DNA of 57,663 nucleotides from an uncultured Lachnospiraceae bacterium (GTDB lineage Bacteria > Bacillota > Clostridia > Lachnospirales > Lachnospiraceae): assembly GCA_947166015.1 (NCBI GenBank), contig CAMVCQ010000005.1:1-57663 (forward strand), read 5' to 3'. Positions 11,129 to 56,873 of this stretch are shown here, in pieces (the stretch's first letter is position 1; every line of letters begins with the position of its first letter). Position numbers and translations under genes: made by a program. A model generated the notes under the pieces. It saw only the letters and a program-made list of their open reading frames with translations, ran no database searches and was not told the DNA's origin.

Positions 11129-11213
11129 CTGCAACTTTTCCAACATTTTTTTTGCCAAAACTGCAACTTTTCCAACATTTTTCAATGGTGTTTTTGCAAC
11201 TTTTCCAACATTA
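11129..11213. repeat. Three direct repeats of TGCAACTTTTCCAACATT (period 32-33 bp) at the 3' end of the Fic gene
   Basis: Copies at 11129-11150, 11161-11182 and 11194-11213. Confidence 0.8.
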
Positions 11214-11951
11214 CGCGAGCCTATTTTCCCATGTTTTGACCGTCTGTTCACGCAAAAACTCCTCAAGCGGTCTCAGCTCCTGTTTGCTGTCCCACGCCTC
11301 CAGCGCACGCATATATTCCTTCCTGTCCTCAATATGTATCACAACGACAGGATGATCGTGCATCAGGAAAAAATAATTCAATAGCAGGCGCCCCACCCTT
11401 CCATTACCATCTGCAAACGCGTGGATGTTTTCAAACTTCGCATGGAAAAATGCCCCCGCCGTCAAAGCCTTATCATTTTTCACATCAGATATGTCATCCA
11501 AGAGTTCATTGATCTCCTCCGGAACATCCTCTGCCAAAGCTCCGATTTCATATCTTCCGGTTACATATTCACCAATTTTATATTCACCCGGTCGTTCGCC
11601 TTTTTCGTATCGCCTTTCATCATAGGTGCCCTCTGTCAAAGCCCTATGGAATTCTTTGATCAATCTCTCATCAATGCAGTCTTTTCTGTCAAAAGAATTC
11701 AATAATTCATCCCAACCCCGCTTGGCATTTTTAAGCGCAAAAACAGTCTTTACATCACCGGTATACTTTATCACCCTGCCATGCTCAAATATCTCTCTTG
11801 TATCCTCAAACGTCACATCCGGCTCTTCAATCTTCGTCGTGTGATAAGCCAGATTTATAGCCATCCCATTTACGATTGCATCAAGATCCGCCGCTGAATT
11901 AACCTTCATCGCCTGCCAGTAGTTGATAACATCATCATATGAAACACTCAT
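11211..11951 (-). CDS. Fic family protein
   Basis: HAFADGNGRVGR matches HxFxDGNGRxxR. Real start probably MSVSYDDVINYW (11951); the upstream 45 codons of the ORF are the dispersed element. Confidence 0.85.
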   Translation of the reverse strand: MSVSYDDVINYWQAMKVNSAADLDAIVNGMAINLAYHTTKIEEPDVTFEDTREIFEHGRVIKYTGDVKTVFALKNAKRGWDELLNSFDRKDCIDERLIKEFHRALTEGTYDERRYEKGERPGEYKIGEYVTGRYEIGALAEDVPEEINELLDDISDVKNDKALTAGAFFHAKFENIHAFADGNGRVGRLLLNYFFLMHDHPVVVIHIEDRKEYMRALEAWDSKQELRPLEEFLREQTVKTWENRLA

Positions 11952-11956
11952 ATTAA

Positions 11957-12090
11957 TCTCCATTCCGGAGCGTAGCGACGGAGTGGCGACGAGAACATCC
12001 AGTTCTCGTCTGCCATCAGTGGCTATTTGTGACGCTCCGGCACAAATAGCCGTGTGAAAAATCAGCATATCAGTGTGATTTTTCACACTA
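11957..12090. repeat. Dispersed structured element, copy 1 (upstream of fic)
   Basis: Same organisation as 56731-56873: hairpins at 11988-12010, 12021-12051 and 12052-12088, plus CCGGAGCGT (11965-11973) complementary to loop ACGCTCCGG (12032-12040). Confidence 0.85.
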
Positions 12091-12145
12091 TTCCTCCAAA
12101 TAAATCATTATTCTAAAGATTCACTGATTAAATACGCATTTCCCG

Positions 12146-55438: not shown

Positions 55439-56716
55439 TCAGCCTATTTTTTCTTTTCCACCCATATACGGTCTGAGCGCCTCGGGAATGCGAACACTCA
55501 AATCCTCGTTAAGGTTGTTCTCAAGGAAGGCTATGAGCATCCTCGGCGGTGCAACCACGGTGTTGTTGAGTGTGTGTGCAAAGTACTTTCCGTCCTTTCC
55601 TTTGACACGTATCCCAAGCCTTCTCGCCTGTGCGTCCGAAAGGTTTGAGCAGCTTCCCACCTCGAAGTATTTCTTCTGACGGGGAGACCAGGCTTCAACG
55701 TCAACTGATTTGATCTTCAGATCGGCCAAGTCACCTGAGCAGCACTCAAGAGTTCTCACCGGTATATCAAGCGATCTGAAAAGATCAACCGTGTTCTGCC
55801 AGAGCTTGTCAAACCACATAGGGCTCTCCTCAGGCTTGCAGACAACTATCATCTCCTGCTTTTCAAACTGATGGATACGGTATACGCCTCTCTCTTCTAT
55901 TCCATGAGCACCTTTTTCTTTTCTAAAGCACGGAGAATAGCTGGTGAGAGTCTTTGGAAGCTCCTCCTCGTCAAGGAGCTTGTTGATGAATTTTCCGATC
56001 ATCGAGTGCTCACTCGTTCCTATCAGATAGAGATCCTCGCCCTCGATCTTGTACATCATCGCGTCCATTTCTTCAAATGACATAACTCCCGTCACCACAT
56101 TTGAGCGGATCATAAACGGCGGCACACAGTATGTAAATCCTCTGTCGATCATAAAATCTCTGGCATAGCTTATAACAGCAGAGTGCAGCCTTGCTATATC
56201 ACCCATAAGGTAATAAAACCCGTTTCCGGCTACATCTCTGGCCGCATCAAGGTCAATACCGTTGTGTTTTTCCATGATCTCCGTATGATACGGTATCTCA
56301 AAATCAGGAACCACAGGCTCACCGAATCTCTCAACCTCAACATTTTCAGAGTCGTCTTTTCCTATCGGAACACTCTTATCTATGATATTTGGGATGACCA
56401 TCATCCTTTTTTTGAGTTCCTCAGCAAGCTCTCTCTCCTGCTCCTCTAACTTTTTCAGATCCTCGGCCTTGGCAGCCACCTCAGCCTTCACGGCCTCAGC
56501 CTCTTCTTTTTTGCCCTGAGCCATCAGCGCACCGATCTGCTTGGATTTAGCATTGCGCTCACTTCTGATATTGTCGGCCTCTCCCTGAACCTCACGCCTT
56601 TTTTTGTCAATGTCGATAGCCTCGTCTACAAGCGGGAGTTTGTGCTCCTGAAACTTGTTTTTGATGTTTTCTTTAACGATTTCGGGATTCTCCCTGACAA
56701 ATTTGATATCAAGCAT
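55439..56716 (-). CDS. serS: Seryl-tRNA synthetase
   Basis: MLDIKFVRENPEIVKENIKNK; class II motifs; C-terminal NNTVVAPPRMLIAFLENN. Confidence 0.97.
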   Translation of the reverse strand: MLDIKFVRENPEIVKENIKNKFQEHKLPLVDEAIDIDKKRREVQGEADNIRSERNAKSKQIGALMAQGKKEEAEAVKAEVAAKAEDLKKLEEQERELAEELKKRMMVIPNIIDKSVPIGKDDSENVEVERFGEPVVPDFEIPYHTEIMEKHNGIDLDAARDVAGNGFYYLMGDIARLHSAVISYARDFMIDRGFTYCVPPFMIRSNVVTGVMSFEEMDAMMYKIEGEDLYLIGTSEHSMIGKFINKLLDEEELPKTLTSYSPCFRKEKGAHGIEERGVYRIHQFEKQEMIVVCKPEESPMWFDKLWQNTVDLFRSLDIPVRTLECCSGDLADLKIKSVDVEAWSPRQKKYFEVGSCSNLSDAQARRLGIRVKGKDGKYFAHTLNNTVVAPPRMLIAFLENNLNEDLSVRIPEALRPYMGGKEKIG

Positions 56717-56730
56717 TTGCTCTATTATTC

Positions 56731-56873
56731 CTCCATTCCGGAGCGTAGCGACGGAGTGGCGACACGAATATCCAATTCGTGTCTGCCATCAGGGGCTATT
56801 TGTGACGCTCCGGCACAAATAGCCGTGCGAAAAATCGGCATTTCAATGCGATTTTTCACACTACCTCCAAAAA
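56731..56873. repeat. Dispersed structured element, copy 2 (upstream of serS)
   Basis: See copy 1. Hairpins 56761-56783, 56794-56824 and ~56825-56861; CCGGAGCGT 56738-56746 complementary to loop 56805-56813. Confidence 0.85.

Follow-up and report, generated by a model that had tools for sequence, protein, structure and literature searches.

A dispersed, MITE-like structured repeat at translation start sites of Lachnospiraceae

Dispersed repeats are common in bacteria. The Correia and NEMIS elements of Neisseria and the enterobacterial ERIC and REP/BIME sequences carry terminal inverted repeats or are found mainly between genes or downstream of them, and the Rickettsia palindromic elements sit within coding sequences. 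In Streptococcus pneumoniae, RUP, BOX and SPRITE are small interspersed repeats with possible effects on neighbouring genes, some of which create open reading frames (ORFs) and for which mobilisation in trans has been proposed (PMC3049150). In this study we describe a MITE-like structured repeat that is distinguished by settling at translation start sites and rebuilding them. It occurs twice in the window, i.e. the whole stretch of 57,663 nucleotides analysed from an uncultured Lachnospiraceae bacterium (contig CAMVCQ010000005.1). As far as our searches reach, the element is undescribed: Rfam 15 gave no match in the window at the gathering score and no match to the element up to E 1 at six loci with diverse copies, and searches of the open-access literature returned no description, an absence which is not proof.

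The two copies in the window and their fold

Both copies, of 135 nt each, are found on the minus strand, which is the gene strand, in front of fic and serS (Table 1). A 21-base core has exactly two occurrences in the window and none in shuffled sequences, and the fold z-scores of the two copies are -6.9 and -6.5, with equally stable shuffles in 0 of 200 cases. The first-pass annotation of this DNA had described three hairpins and a pseudoknot, and every helix it named was recovered. The 9-nt loop ACGCTCCGG of the 11-bp hairpin (12032-12040, plus strand) is an exact complement of its partner CCGGAGCGT (11965-11973), 58 nt apart, the compensated stem reads GACGAGAAC/GTTCTCGTC in one copy and GACACGAAT/ATTCGTGTC in the other, and the T-rich hairpin is present in both. 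Its reported C.A mismatch exists on the plus strand, but on the gene strand it is a G.U pair. Likewise real is the false N-terminal extension of fic noticed before: an in-frame ORF starts at 12086 and adds 45 codons (11952-12086). This fic start is an artefact of the element and the extension should be discounted. ORF callers extend fic through the element, and many other genes in element-carrying genomes are likely to be affected in this way. In gene annotation, the element produces spurious N-terminal extensions.

Table 1. Features of the two element copies and their downstream genes (positions in the window)
Feature	Position	Strand	Basis
Element copy 1, 135 nt, 5' of fic	11958..12092	-	Covariance-model match 145.7 bits, E 3.8e-42
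Putative older Shine-Dalgarno of fic, GGAGG, 5' of insertion	12093..12097	-	Sequence; inferred from filled/empty pairs
TA, left junction of copy 1; probable 2-bp target-site duplication (left side)	12089..12090	-	Inference
P1 of copy 1, 13-bp T-rich hairpin	12052..12088	-	Two-sided changes at 11/13 pairs, 37 sequences
GTG inside P1 of copy 1, 6 nt after old GGAGG	12084-12086	-	
P2 of copy 1, 11-bp hairpin GGCTATTTGTG/CACAAATAGCC	12021..12051	-	Pattern, folding, covariation
P2 loop of copy 1, CCGGAGCGT, pseudoknot 5' strand	12032..12040	-	9 pairs; 99.4% of cells paired, 37 sequences
P3 of copy 1, 12-bp hairpin, stem and loop variable	11985..12014	-	Two-sided changes at 9/12 pairs
Pseudoknot 3' strand of copy 1, ACGCTCCGG	11965..11973	-	Compensated in at least 6 loop/tail subtypes
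Element-supplied Shine-Dalgarno of copy 1, GGAG	11958..11961	-	ATG exactly 6 nt 3' in 115/176 copies
fic (Fic/DOC family), likely true start ATG 11951	11211..11951	-	Pfam PF02661, 1.8e-17
Element copy 2, 135 nt, 5' of serS	56731..56865	-	Covariance-model match 139 bits
Older Shine-Dalgarno of serS, GGAGG	56864..56868	-	TTTGGAGG adjoins start codon in element-free relative (L341)
P1 of copy 2, one G.U pair on gene strand	56825..56861	-	
P2 of copy 2, loop at 56805-56813	56794..56824	-	
P3 of copy 2, stem compensated vs copy 1	56758..56787	-	
Pseudoknot 3' strand of copy 2	56738..56746	-	
Element-supplied Shine-Dalgarno of copy 2	56731..56734	-	Sequence
serS (seryl-tRNA synthetase), start ATG 56716	55439..56716	-	Pfam PF00587 and PF02403

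The structure, comprising helices of 13, 11 and 12 bp and the 9-bp pseudoknot, was tested on 37 diverse sequences. In these, 92.7% of the cells are paired (37-48% in slid controls) and two-sided changes occur at 26 pairs, supporting all four helices, the pseudoknot among them. Covariation is strong, with a score of 0.284 against 0.095 for shuffled alignments (0 of 500 as high) and 0.04-0.07 for slid controls. The pseudoknot has been re-made with other sequences in at least six subtypes, in which loop and tail change together: CCGGAGCGT/ACGCTCCGG, CCGAAGCGY/RCGCTTCGG, GACGAGC/GCTCGTC, TTCTGAGCGA/TCGCTCAGAA, TTCCGAGCGA/TCGCTCGGAA and CCGAGAACGT/RCGTTCTCGG. Loops pair with their own tail over 8.5-10 bp and with the tails of other subtypes mostly over 3-7 bp, the exceptions being closely related subtypes (I with II, 7.4; IV with V, 9). 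Short perfect palindromes (e.g. GGAACTGTAAACAGTTCC, AAGAACTAAAGTTCTT, GAACCTTTGGTTC) were seen in hairpin loops of the element, and the hairpin concerned differs by subfamily: such insertions lie in the P3 loop in L011-L013, L015, L017 and L019, and in the P1 and P2 loops in L365-L373.

Pair-preserving changes had been taken as evidence for selection on folded RNA or single-stranded DNA. Maintenance of the pairing was borne out, but the RNA strand is not favoured by the counts. Under selection on the sense RNA, G-U pairs should be tolerated and A-C pairs should not; the reliably aligned pairs contain 24 G-U and 24 A-C cells, and broader alignments agree. A small tRNA control (acceptor stems of 12 tRNAs from the same loci) gave 6 G-U versus 0 A-C. 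Since G-U shows no excess over A-C, the pairing may be constrained as DNA and not as RNA. The pairing of the element is maintained, but RNA as the constrained form is without support from the present counts.

Placement between Shine-Dalgarno sequence and start codon

Of 206 copies with enough flanking sequence, 85% are followed within 30 nt on the 3' side by an ORF in sense direction that starts with ATG and has a length of 60 aa or more; for random positions the share is 20%, and for the other side of the element it is 5%. The orientation is almost always sense relative to the downstream gene. The ATG lies 6 nt past the element end in 115 of 176 copies, and several others also have an ATG at 6 nt, but with short frames. 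The downstream genes encode Fic, SerS, HrcA, argininosuccinate lyase (ArgH), thioredoxin (Trx), a FabG-like reductase, a response regulator, elongation factor P, an acetolactate-synthase-type TPP enzyme and a flagellar rod/hook protein. These share no pathway, which argues against a ligand-specific riboswitch; the cis-regulatory RNA considered in the first-pass annotation is thus unlikely in the form of a specific riboswitch.

Comparison with relatives revealed pairs of filled and empty sites. At serS, the relative with the most similar SerS (G009, 95% aa) has TTTGGAGGTTGCT-ATG, and the host has TTTGGAGG-element-AATAATAGAGCAA-ATG. Further pairs against G009 were found at hrcA, argH, thioredoxin and other genes, among them one identified by eye which we take to be DUF1385-like, and at a response regulator gene the pair was obtained against three other species. 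In these pairs the element is inserted into the spacer between an existing Shine-Dalgarno sequence (SD) and the start codon, and the old SD is left upstream. At hrcA the original ATG is reused, because the frame and the codon count after the ATG are unchanged. Nearly every young copy carries TA at its left end, and on the right TA recurs shortly before the ATG; if a TA duplication is assumed at hrcA, the reconstructed spacer equals the empty site in length, with GCCT in both. Copies that are otherwise identical can still differ in the 1-3 nt that follow GGAATGGAG. Because of this variation at the 3' junction, for which simple cut-and-paste does not account, we consider a 2-bp TA target duplication as probable only. 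As all empty sites come from other species, the junctions are deduced by comparison; the close pair G018/G021 offered no clean empty site, one site being a decayed copy.

From this arrangement a way of insertion can be proposed. The element would insert in sense into the short spacer between SD and start codon. The old SD would stay upstream, now in front of a GTG, TTG or ATG at the base of P1, and the 3' end GGAATGGAG would provide a second SD, with the gene's own ATG about 6 nt further on. The gene would still be translatable from the new SD, so that the element could spread without silencing its targets. Three hairpins and the loop-to-tail pseudoknot adjoining the new SD are kept as the subfamilies diverge, and some copies may have become functional leaders. 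The niche between SD and start codon, together with the replacement SD, would explain the invasion of essential genes (serS, efp, hrcA).

Two candidate functions were rejected. A conserved leader peptide is contradicted by frame, length and stop, which differ between subfamilies. A strong switch by SD sequestration was considered on the basis of predicted SD exposure, which is 0.25 unpaired versus 0.35 with a shuffled linker. For host copies the SD is at 0.14 when free and 0.07 with the pseudoknot bases blocked, and elsewhere the values are 0.28 and 0.44; the effect is small and not uniform among subfamilies.

Copy number, mobility and conservation in place

The host genome (2.1 Mb) contains about 50 copies. 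The covariance model R1, which was used for the copy counts and in which type 2 copies have no separate model, gave 53 matches with E<0.001 at 51 distinct places; BLAST of the host assembly found the element at 41 places, and the pattern of the first hairpin occurs 36 times (reversed-pattern control 0). By covariance model, about 240 copies were detected across Lachnospiraceae-type genomes. Among 60 relatives, 29 of the 36 congeners carry copies, as do 2 of the 24 genomes from other families, and among 295 genomes drawn from the order, strong model matches were obtained in 15 (host included), from two families. The exact 21-base core is contained in at least 118 stretches among the matches listed, and the core-bearing records among these are titled Lachnospiraceae, Roseburia, Eisenbergiella, Acetatifactor, Lachnospira, Parablautia and similar. 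The element is real, family-wide in its spread and unusual in its niche. The first-pass description of a dispersed structured element stands: the element has additional copies and covaries strongly, and Rfam contains no family that matches it.

Phages and plasmids were rejected as vehicles: the exact core was found neither in viral contigs nor in plasmids. Three unverified faecal 'phage' scaffolds match the element at 77-81%. Two of them, MT837007.1 (L377) and MT838414.1 (L378), labelled 'Bacteriophage sp.', carry what we take by eye to be bacterial ORFs, e.g. a Tex-like protein, and are probably not phage.

Many host copies are 97-100% identical despite unrelated contexts. On host contig C91, three head-to-tail units of a divergent subtype form an array before one gene (L235:212-630 = G000:C91:212-630) with a unit of 140 bp and identical last two copies. 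Tandem junctions of type 2-type 1 and type 1-type 2 lie at GGAG, and tandems occur also in other species. Such arrays, together with copies that are nearly identical, indicate that the element has moved recently. The mobile-leader reading put forward earlier is supported by these arrays, by about 50 copies per genome and by the filled and empty sites; copy number, filled and empty sites between species and the lack of a conserved ORF are as expected for a MITE. Terminal inverted repeats shared with an autonomous element were not found: the sequence has no inverted repeat between the two ends, and every P1 pattern in the host proved to be a short copy, a repeat-split copy or a copy cut by a contig end. 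Neither a reverse transcriptase (PF00078), as for a group II intron or retron remnant, nor an IS630-type transposase (PF13358), as for an IS630-derived MITE of RUP/Correia type, was found in the host. Movement would depend on a trans-acting enzyme which lies outside the three mobiliser families tested (these two and Y1) or was lost. A second MITE-like repeat (ends GTTACTATTCACGGGT / ACCCGTGAATAGTAAC; about 99% identity over 225 bp on two contigs) was seen inserted in the P1 hairpin of one copy (L236 ~1422-1790, i.e. G000:C2:46221-46588; also L245, G000:C28).

Some copies are probably functional, because at two loci the element has changed far less between orthologous copies than the sequence on either side. 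At a locus common to three species, 0-2 substitutions were counted over 141-160 nt of element and the flanks differ by 6-14%; at the second orthologous locus, the element has 0 differences in 163 nt and the flanks 2-6% (about 4%). By simple arithmetic, the chance of 0 in 160 at about 10% divergence is near 1e-7 or less. No such contrast was seen for an older shared copy 5' of a rubredoxin-like gene (2/134 vs 1-4% in the flanks). Conversion by another copy could likewise conserve copies in place, although its sequence is not that of any other strong copy found in the genomes concerned. The stretch L358:1687-4221 is 96-98% identical to L241 (G000:C29) in two species with serS DNA about 17% different, which suggests recent exchange or strong conservation.

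Alternative readings and comparison with known systems

On balance, we favour a non-autonomous, MITE-like element of about 135 bp that targets and rebuilds translation starts, with some copies retained as leaders. A primarily cis-regulatory RNA, in which the pseudoknot and a CUCC/CCCC stretch before the SD make the new SD alternately accessible and blocked, perhaps in coupling with the translation of a leader ORF starting at the old SD, and in which copies spread since this control is useful, appears unlikely. It would account for the slow evolution of orthologous copies at two loci, the lower SD exposure than with a shuffled linker and the fixed 6-nt spacing, but not for the absence of a common theme among the downstream genes, the equal G-U and A-C counts or the leader ORF variable in frame, length and stop; moreover, copies are absent from many species of the group, and the SD effect is small and subfamily-dependent.

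The equal counts would suit helices that matter as DNA, with single-stranded or cruciform hairpins as substrate of the moving enzyme, the mRNA fold as by-product and the pairing kept by transposition or by copying of one arm from the other in replication; the wholesale replacement of stems between subfamilies agrees with this. However, DNA hairpin substrates do not usually have a loop-to-tail pseudoknot, the conservation of orthologous copies after insertion goes beyond what mobility alone requires, and the tRNA control is small, so that we regard it as rather improbable, although it overlaps with the mobile-element explanation and does not exclude it. Hardly probable at all is a REP-like or IS200/IS605-derived element on whose hairpin ends a Y1 (HUH) transposase acts, inserting it 3' of GGAG: for all the fit of the hairpin near the left end, the GGAG at left flank and right end and the single orientation, PF01797 is absent from the host (98.5%-complete) and from many copy-rich relatives (G012, G016, G019, G022, G025, G028, G032). 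For the same reason, the REP-like reading raised in the first-pass annotation finds no support in a RAYT link.

For the favoured MITE-like element a further claim can be made only tentatively: it might be the first mobile family specific to translation initiation sites, which recognises the spacer from SD to start, inserts into it, rebuilds the start site with its own SD and so places dozens of unrelated genes per genome under one pseudoknotted leader that the hosts retain under selection. With the element, abundant gut bacteria have a portable 5' leader of natural origin. It also offers a ready natural experiment, with one leader before unrelated genes and empty orthologous sites for comparison.

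Like Correia/NEMIS, ERIC and REP/BIME, the element is structured, dispersed, non-autonomous and presumably transcribed with its neighbours; unlike for REP-type repeats, the link to a Y1 transposase failed for its host. With translational riboswitches of the preQ1 and SAM-V type it shares a pseudoknot adjoining the SD in the 5' leader, but its copies are dispersed before unrelated genes and have no Rfam match up to E 1. RUP, BOX and SPRITE resemble it as small interspersed Firmicute repeats with possible neighbour effects and ORF creation; in contrast to these, nearly all copies of the element lie in sense between SD and start codon, a placement that a term search did not find in that source (PMC3049150), and the element brings an SD and has a pseudoknot and family-wide subtypes. 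Like the Rickettsia palindromic elements it is palindromic and can be read through in frame; unlike these, however, it has no conserved frame, and the gene can start anew downstream of it.
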